From Phycisphaerales bacterium (lineage in GTDB: Bacteria; Planctomycetota; Phycisphaerae; Phycisphaerales; SM1A02): DNA of 64,000 nt. The notes under the pieces are model-generated. The model was not told the origin of the DNA. It did not search any database and was given only the letters and a program-made list of their open reading frames with translations. A program made the translations under genes and the position numbers. Shown piece by piece: positions 1,263 to 8,368 of this stretch. Location of the stretch: positions 1 through 64,000 of the forward strand of contig JAKVBQ010000002.1 in the NCBI GenBank assembly GCA_022447205.1, written 5' to 3'. Each line of letters begins with the position of its first letter. Position 1 is the first letter of the stretch.

Positions 1263-2924
1263 TCAGAACTGCATCTGGAACTGGGTCAGGAAGACCATCT
1301 CGTTGGTCGCCCTCAGGAGCGGTCGGAAGCCGCTGTCGACGGTGGCGCTGACCTGGGTGATCTCGTTGAAGGAGTAGCCGAACTGGAAGCTCCAGCGGAG
1401 ATCCTGCCCGTCGAGATACCAGTTGGCACCGATGGTCGCGATGCTGAGCGGACTCATCTTGGGGGGGATGTTGATCGGGTTGCCGCCGCTGTCAGTGAAC
1501 TGGTTCAGGGTGGGCTGGGTGATCGGATCGATGTACTCATAACGAGCGAAGAGCTCCCATTTCGGGGTCATGTACATCGAGCCCTGGACGAGGACGCCCA
1601 GGAGGTTGGTGGTTCCGCTGACGCTGGGCTGGGCATTGAACAGGTTGCCACCGGTCGAACGGCTCCACTTGCTCTCGGAGTTGGAGTAGTAGACGGCGCC
1701 GTACAGGCTCGCACCACCGAAGTTGAAGGAGGCATCACCGGTAACCGTGATCCACTCGTTGTTCCCTGAACCGACGTAGGTCGGCTCCAGCTGGAACACG
1801 TTGACGGGCAGATCGGTCGGTGCCGAACCCATCTGGTAGTGACCGGCGAGCCCGAGCATGATGCCGTTCTCCTCGCCGATGGGGCTCGTCATCTCGGAGA
1901 ATTCAGACCAGTCGCCGGCAAGCTTGTACTCGATGCGGGTCGTGAATCCGTAGCTCGCCTGCTGCTCCCAGTACGGGGAATTGAGGGGCTGCGTCCCGAC
2001 CGGGAAGTAGCCGCTGTTGTTCGAGTCACCCGCGAGCAGGTTGTCGGTGCCACCGTCGGAGAAGGCGAACGACCAGGCGAAGTCGGTGCCGCGCGTGGAG
2101 AGTTCGATGCCCTGGGATCGTCCGATGCCCATGAGCTGGTCGACGGAACTGCGCCCGGCGGTGAGCAGGTTCTGGACCGAGATGAGGCTTTCGCGGGCGA
2201 ACGGCAGCTTGAACTGACCGAAACGGATCGACCACTGGTTGTCGAGGTCGAAGGCGACGTAGGCATCAAGCAGGTTCAGTCCACCGACCGAAGCGGCGTT
2301 GGCGTTCTGGCCGCCGGCCTGCAGGGTGCCGAACGAATCGAACTGGGTCCGGATGTAGTAGCGGATGCCGGGTTCGAAGACATGGCCCTTGAAGACCAGC
2401 CGGGAGTGCGGCAGGTCGAAGCCGTACTGGTTGTCGGGGAGGCGCTCCGCCTGACCACCGGGTCCGGTGTTCGCGTATCCGGCATTGGACGTGCGGCTCC
2501 ACATGTAGCGGGCCTGGAGGAGACCGCTGACCTGAAGCATGAAGCGGTTGTCCGCGCTGCGCAGGTAGAACCCGCTGTCAGGACTCCAGCCAGCGGTCGC
2601 CGCAGCATCCTGAAGGCTGGTTCTCGAGCTGCTGTCGGCGAGGACGTCGGCCACCAGGGAACGCATCTCGGTGGCACGCTCCTCGGTCAACCACTCCTGA
2701 CGGGTCTCGGCCCGCAGGACCTCGACCTCCTGGCGGAGGTGTGCGTTGTCACGCTCGAGCATGTCCAGCCGCTCGGTGAGCCGGTCAAGCGAGGTGGCCT
2801 CGCCCGCAGGCGAGCCATCCTGAGCACCCAGGGCCATGCCGGTCAGGGCAAGGCAGGCCCCGGAGGCGATCATGGCGACAGGCAGTGCCCGCGTGCGGTG
2901 GGTTCTGGTTCGTCTGGTATGCAT
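1263..2924 (-). CDS. Outer-membrane porin, OprP/OprO (phosphate-selective porin) family, paralogue 1
   Basis: This is a 553-residue predicted outer-membrane beta-barrel. A signal peptide (hydrophobic stretch ending near MALGAQDG) precedes a heptad-rich coiled coil (about residues 45-75), a conserved block ADVLADSSSRTSLQDAA, and a long barrel region rich in alternating aromatic strands that ends in a terminal phenylalanine (QFQMQF), the usual Bam recognition end. The N-terminal block is shared with the two porins upstream, so the three are tandem paralogues; this one is the most divergent. An in-frame TTG lies nine bases upstream, but ATG at 2924 is preferred because AGGAG sits nine bases before it. 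The family is Porin_O_P by pattern; the real substrate (phosphate, polyphosphate or another anion) cannot be read from sequence. Confidence 0.8.
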   Translation of the reverse strand: MHTRRTRTHRTRALPVAMIASGACLALTGMALGAQDGSPAGEATSLDRLTERLDMLERDNAHLRQEVEVLRAETRQEWLTEERATEMRSLVADVLADSSSRTSLQDAAATAGWSPDSGFYLRSADNRFMLQVSGLLQARYMWSRTSNAGYANTGPGGQAERLPDNQYGFDLPHSRLVFKGHVFEPGIRYYIRTQFDSFGTLQAGGQNANAASVGGLNLLDAYVAFDLDNQWSIRFGQFKLPFARESLISVQNLLTAGRSSVDQLMGIGRSQGIELSTRGTDFAWSFAFSDGGTDNLLAGDSNNSGYFPVGTQPLNSPYWEQQASYGFTTRIEYKLAGDWSEFSEMTSPIGEENGIMLGLAGHYQMGSAPTDLPVNVFQLEPTYVGSGNNEWITVTGDASFNFGGASLYGAVYYSNSESKWSRSTGGNLFNAQPSVSGTTNLLGVLVQGSMYMTPKWELFARYEYIDPITQPTLNQFTDSGGNPINIPPKMSPLSIATIGANWYLDGQDLRWSFQFGYSFNEITQVSATVDSGFRPLLRATNEMVFLTQFQMQF

Positions 2925-3003
2925 CCCGTTCAACTCCTGGCTCGGTACCGGAACATGCCCCCCGGGAGCCGTACGCGGCCCGTGAGCAGTCCGTCTGGGG
3001 CAT

Positions 3004-3107: not shown

Positions 3108-4706
3108 TCAGAAAAGGAGCTGGAGCTGGGCCCGGAGGACCCATTGGTCCTTGGCGTTGGAGTACCCCCACCCGAGATCCTGGAGGCTGTTCTCACTCAC
3201 ACCCACCAGGCTGCTCTCGAGATTGATCCCCCAGTCCACGGTGAGCTTCACGTTGTCGTTGATGAAGTGATTGGCCCCGATGGTCAGGATGCTCGAGACG
3301 CTGTTTCCAAGCGGCACGGCAAGCGAGGGCGGAAGCGCTGGCGCGTCGATCTGGACGGAGAAGTCATCGAGACCGGCGTCGGTATAGGCGTAGCGAGCGA
3401 AGAGCTCGAGCCCGGGGCAGACGGCATAGCCACCCTGGAGGACCGCACCCCAGGAGGTGACCTTGGATGCGGTGTAATCACGGATCGCGGGATTGAAGAA
3501 GGTGGTCCCCTGTCCGGAGATCTCGAATTGCTGCCAGACGACCGCTCCGAAGAGACTGAAGTCACCGAACTTCGCGCTGATGTCCGCGGTGACGCCCTGG
3601 ACGGTGGTGCCGTTCAGGTCTGCATTGTTCAGGACGGGCGGTGGGAAGACGAAAGGCAGGCCGAAGGCAGTCTGGTCGCTCACGCTGGAGTTGTATTCCT
3701 GAATCATCCCCGCAAACCCGACCATGACACCGGTCGACTGGTCGACGGCCGCATTGAACGACTCGAACTGGTCCCAGTCGCCGGCGATCTTCCACTGTGC
3801 TCGAGCCGCGAAGGCGTAATCGGTGGGATCGTTCGAAGAGTTGGTGTTCATCTGGCCGGAGGACAGGGCGGTTTGCATCCCGTTGGTGTACGCGCCCTCG
3901 AGGGAGAACTGATCGGTCCGGTAGCGTGCATCGACCCCGACACCACGCCCGGAATTGAAGAACGCATTGACCATCGATCGATCGACCGCGAGCTGATGGC
4001 GGCTCGAGACGAGTTCCTCCCGCATGAAGGGCGTCTTGAACTGACCGACGGACACCTCGAGGCCGGAGTCGTAGGCCTTGGTGATCATCACGTCCTCGAA
4101 GTTGAACGCCCCGGTCGTCGGCCCGAAGGCACCGTTCACCTGATAGGACCAGGACGGATCGAAGACCGTGCCCTGAAACTTGACCTTGGCCCTTCTGATC
4201 CCGAATCCCCATCCGGTCCTCGAACCGGCCACCGTGTTGGTGTCGGCGACCTGATCGGCGAGGAAATCGGCGGGTGAATAGTCCTGCCCGCTTGGATTGT
4301 GGTTCAGGACCCAACGGACCTGGAGCTGGCCATTGATCCGGAGGGTGAACCCCCCGTCGTTGCTCGCGATCTGGAACCCGTCACCGGGTGCGTAGCCGGA
4401 GGAGACCCCGGCATCCTGGAGTGCGGTCCTGGTCGAGGCATCCGCCAGGACATCCGCCACGATCCCACGCAGTTCATCAGCCCGCGCCTCATTCAGCCAG
4501 GGCCCGGCCGCATCGGCATCCAGTCGACGCTCGAGTGCGACGCCACGCGCGCGCAGGCCGGCGATCTCGGCAGAGAGCGCATCGATGAGCGCCTGCTCGC
4601 CCTGTTCCGCCGCTTCGGAAGAAGCCATGCCCCAGGGAGCAAGAAGGGCGAGGCAGGGCGCGAGGATGGCTGACGTCCGGCTGATCGGCGAGGGGTATGC
4701 GCGCAT
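3108..4706 (-). CDS. Outer-membrane porin, OprP/OprO family, paralogue 2
   Basis: This is a 532-residue porin. A signal peptide ends around GMASSEAAE, followed by a short coiled coil, the block VADVLADASTRTALQDAG, a GFTLRINGQLQVRW first strand, and a barrel ending in WVLRAQLQLLF. It shares this C-terminal end almost exactly with paralogue 3, which lies directly upstream on the same strand, so these two arose by a more recent duplication than paralogue 1. The start at 4706 is chosen because GGAG lies about eight bases upstream and because the signal peptide begins there; the longer in-frame extension to 4847 runs through the upstream terminator. Spacing and terminators suggest partly separate transcription of the three genes. 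Confidence 0.82.
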   Translation of the reverse strand: MRAYPSPISRTSAILAPCLALLAPWGMASSEAAEQGEQALIDALSAEIAGLRARGVALERRLDADAAGPWLNEARADELRGIVADVLADASTRTALQDAGVSSGYAPGDGFQIASNDGGFTLRINGQLQVRWVLNHNPSGQDYSPADFLADQVADTNTVAGSRTGWGFGIRRAKVKFQGTVFDPSWSYQVNGAFGPTTGAFNFEDVMITKAYDSGLEVSVGQFKTPFMREELVSSRHQLAVDRSMVNAFFNSGRGVGVDARYRTDQFSLEGAYTNGMQTALSSGQMNTNSSNDPTDYAFAARAQWKIAGDWDQFESFNAAVDQSTGVMVGFAGMIQEYNSSVSDQTAFGLPFVFPPPVLNNADLNGTTVQGVTADISAKFGDFSLFGAVVWQQFEISGQGTTFFNPAIRDYTASKVTSWGAVLQGGYAVCPGLELFARYAYTDAGLDDFSVQIDAPALPPSLAVPLGNSVSSILTIGANHFINDNVKLTVDWGINLESSLVGVSENSLQDLGWGYSNAKDQWVLRAQLQLLF

Positions 4707-4830: not shown

Positions 4831-4880
4831 AAAACCGGCCGGTCCAAATGAAAACCGGCCGGTCCCTGAGGACCGGCCGG
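4831..4880 (-). terminator. Terminator with a duplicated 3' arm, after porin paralogue 3
   Basis: On the minus strand GGCCGGTCC-TCAG-GGACCGGCC is followed by GGTTTTC, a classical stem and U tract. The 3' arm plus U tract (GGACCGGCCGGTTTT) is then repeated once, 20 bases on. Either copy can pair with the single 5' arm. It lies about 60 bases past the porin stop. Confidence 0.8.
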
Positions 4881-4940
4881 CCGAGCCGTTCGACGCCCCG
4901 AGGGGCAATCGTTGGGTGGATGTTGAAGCGAAGTCGCTGA

Positions 4941-6395
4941 TCAGAACAGGAGCTGGAGCTGAGCCCGGAGGACCCACTCGTTGTCTTCGTTGGTCTGACG
5001 CCAGCCAGTGTTGACCTGGGTGTTGTCAGCCCACTGACCGTTGAGGGAATCCTCGAGGTTGATGCCCCAGTCAGCGGTGAACTTCACGTTGCTGTTGATG
5101 AAGTAGTTGGCACCAACGGTGAGAAGCGTGAGCTTCGCATCGGCTGCCAGATTGGTACCGACGTTAGCATCGTTGAGGCCACGGTTGTTGGCCCAGGACA
5201 TGCGACCGAAGAGTTCCCACTCATCGTTGAGCGAGTAGCCGACCTGACCGACGAAACCCCAGGGGTTGACGCTGTCGAGCTCGGTACCGCCTGCAGGAGC
5301 ATCGCCGAAGTCGTAGTTCTGGTAGACGACAGCAGCAAAGATGCTGACGCCGGAGAACTTCGCACTGAAATCGGCGGTGACGCCCCACATGGAGGTGTGA
5401 TCGGTGGCATAGGCATCCGCAACAGGAGCCGCTCCGTTTGAACCAATCAAGCCGTTCCAGGACTGACCCATGAAGCCGAAGCCAAGCATCATCGCCTGGT
5501 CATCGCCGGGGCTGCTGGTGAAGCTGTCGAAGTCGCTCCAGTCACCGCTCATCTTGTACTCGAACCGACCCTGAACAGACCACTTGACGGGGGTGTTGGT
5601 GTAAGTGCCTTGGCGGAGCGCGGTCTGGACACCGTTGGTGTAGGCAACGTCGAGCTTCCAGGCGTCGGTCTTGTAACCGAGCATCATGCCGACGGTACGG
5701 TCAGCGTTGAAGTACTCGTTGACGAGCGAACGCTCGACGGCGAGCTGGTTGGCGCTCGAGACGAGTTCTTCGCGGAGCCACGGGGCCTTGAACTGACCGA
5801 AGGTCAGGCTCATGTTGTCGTTCATGTCGTGAGTGATGAACGCTTCCTCGAAGTTGAAGCCGCCGTTACCGTCGAATGCACCGTTGACAGCGTAGTGCCA
5901 GGTCTTGTCAACGACGTTGCCCTGGAACTTGACCTTGGCGCGACGAACCTGAAAACCCCATTCGGTGGCATTCTGGTTAGCGAACGTGGGATCTTCGGAA
6001 TCGTCATCGTCACCGATGTGGCTCATGACCCAACGGGCCTGGACCTGTCCCTTGATGTGCATGGTGAAGGCACCATTCTGCGAGCTCAGGAAGAAGCCAC
6101 TGCCCGACTTGTAGCCGGCCATTGCTCCGCTGTCCTGAAGGCTCGTACGAGTCTGGCTGTCAGCCAGCACGTCCTGGACGATGCCACGGATCTCGGTCGC
6201 GCGGGTTTCGTTGAGCCAGGCATTGTCCTGAGCATCAACGCGAGCCTCGAGGGACTCGTTCTGAGCGCGAAGTTCTGAAAGTTCGGCACGAAGTGTGTCA
6301 ATTGACGCACTCTCAATGTCCGTCGCACCAGCGAACCCGCTGGCCGACAGAGTTGCGGCTCCTGCCAGGAGCCCTACGGTTCGGATCATTGTCAT
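4941..6395 (-). CDS. Outer-membrane porin, OprP/OprO family, paralogue 3
   Basis: This is a 484-residue porin, first of the tandem set in transcription order. MTMIRTVGLLAGAATLSASGF is a signal peptide, followed by a coiled coil, the block VQDVLADSQTRTSLQDSG, and a beta-barrel ending in WVLRAQLQLLF. The start is ATG at 6395, with GGAG ten bases upstream; a longer frame to 6668 exists but runs through the leader. Its third-position base choice is slightly less GC-rich than in the neighbours, which may reflect high expression. A four-copy repeat resembling a Pho box lies about 170 bases upstream. If the family name reflects function, this would be a phosphate-starvation porin; that link is an inference from family plus motif. 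Confidence 0.85.
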   Translation of the reverse strand: MTMIRTVGLLAGAATLSASGFAGATDIESASIDTLRAELSELRAQNESLEARVDAQDNAWLNETRATEIRGIVQDVLADSQTRTSLQDSGAMAGYKSGSGFFLSSQNGAFTMHIKGQVQARWVMSHIGDDDDSEDPTFANQNATEWGFQVRRAKVKFQGNVVDKTWHYAVNGAFDGNGGFNFEEAFITHDMNDNMSLTFGQFKAPWLREELVSSANQLAVERSLVNEYFNADRTVGMMLGYKTDAWKLDVAYTNGVQTALRQGTYTNTPVKWSVQGRFEYKMSGDWSDFDSFTSSPGDDQAMMLGFGFMGQSWNGLIGSNGAAPVADAYATDHTSMWGVTADFSAKFSGVSIFAAVVYQNYDFGDAPAGGTELDSVNPWGFVGQVGYSLNDEWELFGRMSWANNRGLNDANVGTNLAADAKLTLLTVGANYFINSNVKFTADWGINLEDSLNGQWADNTQVNTGWRQTNEDNEWVLRAQLQLLF

Positions 6396-6805
6396 CTGAT
6401 CGACTCTCCAGACTTTAGGGGTGGGATCGGCTCTTGCTTGCCCACTACCTAGTCCATCCACCCGTCCGCTCGCCGCCCGTACCACCGAGGCACAGACCAG
6501 GACGGTTCTTTTCGATTGGGGGCTATTCGGCACCCACAAGGGCGCGAACAGTAGAAATGGACTGTTAAGATATTGTAAAGGAAGTGTAAAGGAAATGTTC
6601 AGATGCGCGCCCCTGCGCATGCTTGTACGTAAGTTCTTGTTTGACAAGGAGTTCCGCTTCCTGCCCAATCAGCCACTTTTGGCCAAACCGGGAATCGGCG
6701 AGACGCTTGCCAGCAAGCCCACAAAACCGAGCCTGGAAAGAGCTCCAGATCTCGACTTCATCACGCTCGACAAACTGCTCGCTCGCGCACGCGCAGTATA
6801 CGAAA
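6396..6805. other. 410-base intergenic region between radA and the porin cluster
   Basis: It holds the leader of porin 3 (6396 to about 6540) and the Pho-box-like repeats (6563-6602). The stretch from about 6540 to 6700 is visibly AT-richer than its surroundings. I see no gene on either strand. Confidence 0.7.
6563..6602 (-). promoter_or_regulatory. Pho-box-like array: four 7-bp direct repeats with 11-bp period
   Basis: On the plus strand TGTTAAG (6563), TGTAAAG (6574), TGTAAAG (6585) and TGTTCAG (6596) start exactly 11 bp apart; read on the minus strand the unit is CTTTACA plus four spacer bases. A 7+4 layout is the established architecture of PhoB/PhoP boxes (E. coli CTGTCAT units; TT-A-ACA units in Bacillus; CTTAACCT units in cyanobacteria). 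A weak -10-like TACTGT follows about nine bases beyond the last repeat, as expected if the box replaces the -35 element. The downstream gene is an OprP-family porin. Confidence 0.6.
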
Positions 6806-8293
6806 TCAAGGCGTTGTCTGCAGGGCGGGCGCACCTTCAGGTGACTGACGCGCAACCGGCTCAAGCAGGGACAGGGCATCGACCAGACGAGGCACTTCGT
6901 GGAGGCGGCCACGGTGCTCTGCATCGATCTCCTCTGCCTGACCGGCAGGCAGGACGATACGACGCGCCCCCCGCCTCAGGGCCTCTGAGACCCGATGCTG
7001 TGCGCCGGCAGCCGGACGAACCGCCCCGGAGAGCGTCACTTCGCCGAAAACCGCGGTGCCAGGCTCCAGGGAACGGCCGTAGTGGGCCCCGGCAATCGCC
7101 AGGGAGGTCGCAAGGTCGACTCCGGGCTCGAGGACCCGCAAGCCGCCAGCCACCGAGACGAAGACATCCTGATCAGCGAGGCGAAGGCCGCCGTGCTTTT
7201 CCAGAACCGCAATCAGCATCGCCAGCCGGGCCGCATCGACCCCGGCAGCCCGCCGCTTGGCGGAACCGAGGAATCCGGTCGCGGTCAGGCCCTGGATCTC
7301 GGCGAGCAGGCACCGTGAGCCGGCCAGGGTGGGGACGATGATCGCACCCGGGGAGGGCTGAGCCTCGGTATCGAGGCGGACCAACTGCTCATTGACCGGT
7401 TCCAGACCGTCACTGGCCATCTGGAAGAGGCCGATCTCCTGGGTGGAGCCGAATCGGTTCTTGATCCCTCTGAGGATCCTGTGGCGATGGTGCTGGTCGC
7501 CTTCGAAGGCGAGGACGACGTCGACCAGGTGCTCGAGGAGCTTGGGACCGGCCAGGGTCCCTTCCTTGGTGACGTGCCCCACGATGACCACCGCCATCCC
7601 GGTCTTCTTGGCAAGGAGCGAGAGTTCGCTGGCGCAACGCCTGAGCTGGGCGGCAGCGCCGGTCCCGCCCCCGCTGCCGCGTCCACGGTCCGCGCCACCG
7701 TTGCTTCCGGAACCCAACCAGGCCATCTGGATCGAATCGAGGATCAGCAAGCGAGGCTTCAGCCGGAGCGCCTCCTGCAGGACCCGGGTGAGATCGGTCT
7801 CGGCCAGAACGTAGAGCGCTGATGAGGCCTCCTCACCGCAGAGTCCAAGGCGTTCTGCCCGCATCCGGACCTGCGCCGCGCTCTCCTCGCTGCTGGCATA
7901 GAGGACGCCATCGCCTGCACCTGCGAGGGCGCCAGCCACCTGCATCAGGAGGGTGCTCTTGCCGATACCGGGATCTCCGCCCAGGAGGATCGAGGAACCG
8001 GGGACGAAGCCCCCGCCCAGGACCCGATCCACCTCTTCTATAGAAGTAGGGATTCGGGGCAGGTCGGTCAGGTCGATCTCGTGAATCGGACACGCGGGCG
8101 TTCCGGTCGCCTCCGGGCCTCCAACCGGGCCTGAGGCGATGCCGGGACCGCCACGCACCTCGGAAGCCGCATCGAGAGGCTCCTTGAACTGGGCAAGCGA
8201 ATCCCAGGTGCCACAGTCCGGGCAACGGCCCATCCACTGGGCCTGGGTCGCGCCGCATTCATCGCAGACGAAACTGGTACGTGATCGGGCCAT
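6806..8293 (-). CDS. radA: DNA repair protein RadA/Sms
   Basis: RadA is a RecA-like ATPase and helicase that acts in processing of recombination intermediates. The 495-residue protein has the N-terminal zinc finger (C10, C13, C24, C27), a Walker A motif GGDPGIGKST at about 105-114, the RadA-specific KNRFG motif at 278-282, and a C-terminal Lon-protease-like domain. A glycine-rich insert (about residues 194-213, GSGSNGG and similar) interrupts the ATPase core after the DSIQMAW strand and is not usual. The start at 8293 is the ATG directly before the zinc finger; no good ribosome binding site precedes it. It is the last gene of a minus-strand group with nuoH. Confidence 0.95.
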   Translation of the reverse strand: MARSRTSFVCDECGATQAQWMGRCPDCGTWDSLAQFKEPLDAASEVRGGPGIASGPVGGPEATGTPACPIHEIDLTDLPRIPTSIEEVDRVLGGGFVPGSSILLGGDPGIGKSTLLMQVAGALAGAGDGVLYASSEESAAQVRMRAERLGLCGEEASSALYVLAETDLTRVLQEALRLKPRLLILDSIQMAWLGSGSNGGADRGRGSGGGTGAAAQLRRCASELSLLAKKTGMAVVIVGHVTKEGTLAGPKLLEHLVDVVLAFEGDQHHRHRILRGIKNRFGSTQEIGLFQMASDGLEPVNEQLVRLDTEAQPSPGAIIVPTLAGSRCLLAEIQGLTATGFLGSAKRRAAGVDAARLAMLIAVLEKHGGLRLADQDVFVSVAGGLRVLEPGVDLATSLAIAGAHYGRSLEPGTAVFGEVTLSGAVRPAAGAQHRVSEALRRGARRIVLPAGQAEEIDAEHRGRLHEVPRLVDALSLLEPVARQSPEGAPALQTTP

Positions 8294-8368
8294 GCTGCAG
8301 AGTGTACAGCCCGGATCAACGATCCTGACGTCATCCACGAAAGCGATGAAAACCCGTCAACGGGGACG

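Follow-up and report, generated by a model that had tools for sequence, protein, structure and literature searches.

Three tandem genes of the Porin_O_P family lie on the minus strand of the window, the whole 64,000-nucleotide stretch of Phycisphaerales DNA analysed here, and a gene that we take to be radA is the upstream neighbour of a repeat array (Table 1). The first porin, which the array is presumed to control, matched PF07396 (Porin_O_P) at 60.6 bits against a gathering score of 20.9, bearing out the original prediction that the gene downstream of the array belongs to the OprP/OprO family. Against NCBIfam, the porins gave a sole match, to ExtI and far below its cut-off, and no phosphate-specific family model was matched. 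An array or leader RNA belonging to the second or third porin was looked for in the window with the matrix and the covariance model described below, and none was found. The first porin most likely starts at the ATG at 6395-6393, which lies 8 nt past GGAGAG and is kept in relatives. We rejected the TTG at 6668 that a mechanical ORF list had given as its start, because the array would then fall within the gene, and because the Shine-Dalgarno-like sequence, the ATG and the relatives indicate 6395.

Table 1. Features of the porin locus, with positions in the window.
Feature	Position	Strand	Basis
Porin_O_P gene, 484 aa, presumed to be controlled	4941..6395	minus	PF07396, E 2e-16
Second tandem Porin_O_P gene, 48% identical to the first	3108..4676	minus	Pfam match
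Third tandem Porin_O_P gene, 33% identical to the first	1263..2933	minus	Pfam match
RadA-like gene, upstream neighbour of the array	6806-8338	minus	AAA, Zn-ribbon and ChlI Pfam matches
Putative Pho-box unit 1, CTGAACA, farthest from the gene	6596..6602	minus	sequence
Putative Pho-box unit 2, CTTTACA	6585..6591	minus	sequence and relatives
Putative Pho-box unit 3, CTTTACA	6574..6580	minus	sequence and relatives
Putative Pho-box unit 4, CTTAACA, nearest the gene, probably in place of a -35 element	6563..6569	minus	sequence and relatives
Likely -10 element TACTGT, 9 nt after unit 4	6548..6553	minus	conserved in five aligned promoters; putative role
Alternative -10 element, TCTACT	6550-6555	minus	sequence
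Conserved folded leader RNA: outer helix, inner helix, then GGGUGGAUG	6449..6511	minus	model R1, 65.8 bits; covariation
Shine-Dalgarno-like GGAGAG, 8 nt 5' of the ATG	6404..6409	minus	sequence, alignment
Intrinsic-terminator-like hairpin 3' of the porin gene	4853..4882	minus	13-pair stem; consensus match only

The array consists of four units of 7 bases, whose starts on the minus strand (6602, 6591, 6580 and 6569) follow one another at exactly 11 bp, as originally observed, and it ends 167 bp from the porin ATG in an intergenic stretch with a higher A+T content than the window. The accompanying claim that the units read CTTTACA held for the middle two, which are identical to it, and not for the outer two, which differ from it at two positions (CTGAACA) and one (CTTAACA). 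The pattern CTTTACA-N4-CTTTACA, with up to 2 mismatches, matched three times in the window, all within the array, versus a mean of 0.01 in 100 dinucleotide shuffles of the window, none of which had 3. From base composition, about 1e-11 occurrences of four CTKWACA units in register are expected in the window, a value that flatters the array because this degenerate unit was written after the array had been seen. Chance, which the shuffles exclude, does not account for the four-unit array.

The putative -10 element TACTGT starts 9 nt past unit 4 and is conserved in all five aligned porin promoters. In this alignment units 2 to 4 mostly keep C, T, A and C, with positions 3 and 4 varying among T, G and A; the spacers vary more than the units, and the block 3' of the array, including TACTGT, is nearly identical. 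A plain sigma-70 promoter made up of bases of the array (TGAACA...TACAAT) was rejected, because the repeats are conserved as repeats and a different -10 element is conserved. A porin profile search of contigs returned no loci with a single porin as query, and 33 loci with an alignment as query. Arrays were found in four named Phycisphaerae MAG porin loci (L142, 66% identity; L143, 56%; L144, 53%; and L146, 59%), 184-199 bp before the match start, each unmatched in 200 shuffles. Two of these, L142 and L143, probably represent G001 and G013 a second time, their leader stretches being identical to L029 and L030, and they were left out before the leader counts given below.

We trained a matrix by EM on 27 phoB upstream stretches, leaving out the genome of the window and its two closest relatives (G000, G001 and G013). 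The log-likelihood reached 99.4 at period 11, versus 25.6-35.5 at periods 8-10 and 12-14 and 19.7-21.6 in three shuffled sets; EM on the other strand recovers the same motif, making this antisense control void. The unit that emerged, tCTTaAC, allows T or G at its fourth position and A or C at its fifth, and can be written CTKMAC. Over both strands of the 64 kb, the top two scores of this matrix fell on the two registers of the array (22.2 and 20.3, the best elsewhere being 13.9), supporting the earlier reading of the layout as that of PhoB/PhoP boxes, and the unit is better written as about CTKMACA than as CTTTACA. The 27-promoter matrix was used for the scans of the window, of pstS, of the genome of the window and of the gene clusters; an earlier three-unit matrix had been made by hand after the array of the window and some relatives had been seen.

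Elsewhere in the genome of the window (3.25 Mb in 86 contigs), we identified a cluster in the order phoB-like, phoR/PnpS-like kinase, Na/Pi symporter (nptA) and phoU-like. The symporter matched NF037997 at 100.8 bits (cut-off 50). The best NCBIfam family of the regulator is PhoB TIGR02154, at 212.2 bits versus a curated cut-off of 296.2, and we therefore call it PhoB-like; the PhoR-like and PhoU-like proteins also score under their curated NCBIfam cut-offs. The position of the symporter within the phoB-phoR-phoU cluster (C56, L022 6780-11259) may be set beside that of pstS, which many relatives have near phoB.

Three units in 11-bp register, CTTCACA-gatc-CTTAACC-aggg-ATGAACA, precede phoB, and over the 18 kb around this gene the two best places for the 27-promoter matrix were before phoB (19.0) and before nptA (16.6, two of the three units being weak), with the next at 13.8. 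The original prediction had staked itself on CTTTACA-N4-type arrays before other phosphate genes of the same genome, and these are present before phoB and, more weakly, before nptA. No array was found before ppk or a second phoU, the 10.6 kb surrounding these genes scoring 9.8 at best, and PstS (PF12849) was searched for in this genome, and in a same-genus relative, and was not found. Of the genes named for that check, pstS was not found and the second phoU lacks an array in the genome itself; the pstS genes of relatives are preceded by arrays. The two-unit pattern, at up to 3 mismatches across the whole genome, gave 14 rows; those with 0-2 mismatches comprised the array (3 rows) and one other place, and the array upstream of phoB was already among the 3-mismatch rows of this first pattern search. 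A three-unit pattern retrieved the arrays of the window and of phoB and one overlapping row of the former, a result that we do not lean on because this pattern had been loosened so as to include the phoB site.

We investigated the distribution of the motif in loci from 30 genomes for each protein, out of the 59 in which a porin, the 61 in which a PhoB match and the 44 (of 61) in which PstS (PF12849) was found. With the hand-made matrix, best scores in the 300 bp upstream of 30 phoB loci averaged 6.61 at period 11, as against -0.84 to 1.53 at periods 8-10 and 12-19; 14/30 loci scored 8 or more at period 11, versus 0-3/30 at other periods. Before 30 pstS loci, the 27-promoter matrix gave a mean of 12.32 at period 11 versus 4.5-6.1 at other periods, and 20/30 loci reached 12 versus 0-2/30. 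Going by gene coordinates, at least 21 of the 61 genomes have pstS no more than 12.5 kb from phoB, and at least 11 have a porin no more than 9.4 kb from it. Three genomes, G014 (C139, L217), G021 (C119, L218) and G031 (C28, L216), carry a porin between the end of phoB-phoR and pstS, each porin having an array of its own; the 27-promoter matrix scored highest before all three genes (phoB, porin, pstS) in G031 and G014, and before the latter two in G021. The two best places in G001 were about the expected nptA start after phoR (the gene was not separately identified) and before phoB. Many of the genomes in the pstS scan, as well as G031, G014 and G021, had phoB promoters in the training set, such that their phoB sites are not independent of the matrix and their pstS and porin sites are.

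A blind search for three CTKWACA units (up to 2 mismatches, 61 genomes) returned 10 rows at 8 places. Three of these places precede the porin in the genome of the window and its two nearest relatives (G000, G001 and G013), and the matches in G008 and G030 lie 54 bp before Na/Pi symporter-like genes, a similarity judged by eye and without a model; the remaining places overlap ORFs (G012), stand just before an ORF (G051) or are without an identified gene (G060). Another pattern search returned 19 rows, 4 of them clearly phoB or porin promoters (G000, G015, G001 and G020). Both searches are weak alone, because their backward controls gave 4 rows versus 10 and 7 versus 19, and it is the adjoining genes that give them weight. 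Separately, an 11-bp array scoring 20.5 was noted at L101 (G017 C6:248962-248990), 66 bp before the gene of a 346-aa proline-rich, secreted-looking protein of unknown function, which is a possible further member of the regulon.

Among 27 more distant porins (the best per genome), the hand-made matrix showed no excess of arrays, with scores of 12 or more in 2/27 on the coding strand versus 3/27 on the reverse. Two distant porins, L170 and L159, form exceptions, with arrays 211 and 348 bp upstream that were unmatched in 200 shuffles. In seven genomes of families f2 and f6 with a porin beside or opposite phoB (G037, G042, G046, G050, G053, G054 and G057), nothing scored above 8.8. Their PhoB is 39-48% identical to that of the genome of the window, and f2 and f6 may therefore use another PhoB site sequence. 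The f2 genomes G037, G042, G046, G050 and G054 (L210-L213 and L219) have the porin divergent from the phoB homologue and without a recognisable Pho box, and a different PhoB site may be used in them. In family f4, each best PhoB match (G039, G043, G047, G055 and G059) reads through one TGA stop. As far as sequence comparison goes, the box appears to be the pattern of one family (f1) of the order, as the f2 and f6 genomes did not show it. The original prediction that the array would define a planctomycete Pho-box sequence is thus narrowed: the array does recur before phosphate genes of relatives, with CTKMACA as its unit and in family f1, not in f2 or f6.

A Pho box is recognised as about 7 conserved bases repeated with an 11-bp period in two or more units, of which there are four here, and the motif also stands at other phosphate genes, both in the same genome (phoB and nptA) and in relatives (phoB, pstS, Na/Pi symporter and porin). 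Because the same spaced repeats precede the phosphate-control and phosphate-uptake genes of relatives, the four repeats are almost certainly docking sites of PhoB, which very probably controls the porin promoter. We infer PhoB binding, induction at low phosphate, the transcription start and the phosphate selectivity of the porin, as follows. Under phosphate shortage, the PhoR-like kinase would phosphorylate the PhoB-like regulator, which would bind the four head-to-tail direct repeats of 11 bp, lining up in tandem along one face of the DNA. In this arrangement the gene-proximal unit would substitute for the -35 element, and PhoB would hold RNA polymerase at TACTGT, the -10 element 9 nt further on. 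The predicted transcript would comprise the porin gene alone, preceded by a leader of about 145 nt, and end at the hairpin at 4882-4853 (a consensus match), and the porin would raise the entry of anions or phosphate through the outer membrane. Activation rather than repression by PhoB is less certain, as is the phosphate selectivity of the porin, which is suggested by its family name, the box and the gene neighbourhood in relatives.

The units of Pho boxes differ between lineages, as in the accounts of Escherichia coli (CTGTCAT) and Streptomyces (GTTCACC) excerpted from PMC4415409. The array resembles the E. coli box described there in its 7 conserved and 4 less conserved bases, its 11-bp direct repeats and its association with phosphate-uptake genes, and differs from it in having CTKMACA as the unit and four units, all putative sites. 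The corresponding part of PMC1906773 places E. coli boxes 10 bp upstream of the -10 element, to be compared with the 9 nt between unit 4 and the putative TACTGT. Cyanobacterial SphR boxes, given in the same part of that paper as CTTAACCT (8+3 bp, 11-bp period), share with the array its period, the presence of three or more units and a very similar core (CTTAAC/CTTTAC); in contrast, the array belongs to another phylum and has A after the core, and the cyanobacterial genes concerned are mainly pst, phoA and nucH (PMC1906773). The Pseudomonas aeruginosa genes oprP and oprO, named in a passage of PMC8025907 as well-known targets of PhoB, encode porins of the same Pfam family, with PhoB control there and predicted control here; unlike them, the planctomycete porin has a conserved leader RNA and stands in a tandem porin cluster, and its selectivity is putative. 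Control of OprO/OprP by PhoR-PhoB had been proposed from gene content for lacustrine Planctomycetes (PMC6461901), making the same link in the same phylum; the available text of that proposal gives no binding site, whereas here candidate sites are identified and compared. No planctomycete Pho box was described in the literature searched by title and start of abstract, a scope outside which most subscription journals lie; in the text seen, the planctomycete mentions in PMC11828411 concern lipid methylation, and the subject of PMC3972451 is Agrobacterium lipids. The Phycisphaerales motif may make the phosphate-starvation regulon of a mostly uncultured aquatic group readable from sequence, and it would place the 11-bp architecture in a further phylum, its core close to that of cyanobacteria.

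We weighed three other explanations of the array. That the repeats are a chance or compositional low-complexity array is negligible in probability: the stretch is indeed A+T-richer than the window, but the ranking by the matrix together with the shuffles, and the promoter alignment, refute this reading, as relatives keep the repeats at the same position and vary more in the spacers than in the units, and the period-11 signal recurs before other phosphate genes. It is very unlikely that another response regulator of the OmpR/PhoB family, answering a different envelope or nutrient signal, binds the array, as it was the PhoB-like gene whose own promoters yielded the motif, and pstS and Na/Pi symporter genes are preceded by it as well. 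Such a regulator would nonetheless find support in the many paralogues (13 matches to the PhoB query in the genome of the window), in the tandem direct repeats that regulators of this fold commonly bind, and in the occurrence of Porin_O_P genes in other contexts, with ExtI as the sole, weak NCBIfam match.

A Pho box through which PhoB represses the gene, or a porin that is a general anion or other channel merely sharing the starvation response, is rather unlikely. The Porin_O_P family is broad, PF07396 was matched where no phosphate-specific model was, and most of the related porins in the compared genomes are without the array. However, the family porins between phoR and pstS in G014, G021 and G031 have their own arrays, and the array stands directly before a conserved -10 element, as for activation. 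Activation of the porin promoter by PhoB is the simplest reading.

Between this promoter and the start codon, we identified a conserved folded leader RNA. The aligned promoters share the motif CGGACGGGTGGATG, 59-65 nt before the match start. This motif, matched at 11 or more of its 14 positions in the 320 bp upstream, was found at 21 of 63 porin loci on the coding strand and at 4 on the other; its first half pairs with an upstream CGTCCG, enclosing the inner helix. The leader alignment (A4) holds 20 of 22 distinct stretches, L040 (weak) and L187 (near-identical to L186) having been left out. In it 90.2% of cells pair, 10 of the 15 pairs show changes of both partners, and none of 500 shuffles attained the covariation score of 0.374. 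Both helices covary. Because the members were picked by the 14-base motif, which forms one strand of the outer helix, some of the support for this helix stems from the selection itself, and the inner helix gives evidence less bound to it. With 31 distinct rows, in an alignment fitted to the structure, pairing was 91.3% and covariation 0.386.

A covariance model of the leader, run over 198 genomes of the class, matched 17 genomes at E <=0.001. All 9 matches of at least 35 bits lie shortly before a porin-like gene, four of them outside the training set (G028, G133, G197 and G006), and the 8 matches of 25-31 bits apparently do not, with ORFs read by eye in both cases. The 71 sources chosen for having porins gave 32 matches of at least 35 bits; seven that lay well before the porin that had fetched the locus were checked, and 7/7 precede an earlier porin. 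In the window, the first of the three tandem porins alone has the leader (65.8 bits, next 11.4). The covariance models of Rfam 15 gave no match at E <=1 in 6380-6620 and none at E <=0.5 in six related loci; on the whole window they found one tRNA and nothing else.

The leader was found before planctomycete porins with and without Pho boxes, and is thus a layer separate from the box. It is a candidate in its own right for a new cis-regulatory RNA family. We lean slightly towards a dual control of the porin, in which PhoB would act through a previously undescribed planctomycete Pho box, and a new class of leader RNA, with its invariant GGGUGGAUG and lying before the first gene of porin clusters, would act in cis on the translation or stability of the porin mRNA. 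Within this dual control, the leader would perhaps act through a trans-acting RNA-binding protein or small RNA; the dullest possibility is that it stabilises the mRNA. The leader RNA carries GGUGGAUG, and it was found at L144, L146, L155, L163, L185, L198 and other loci.
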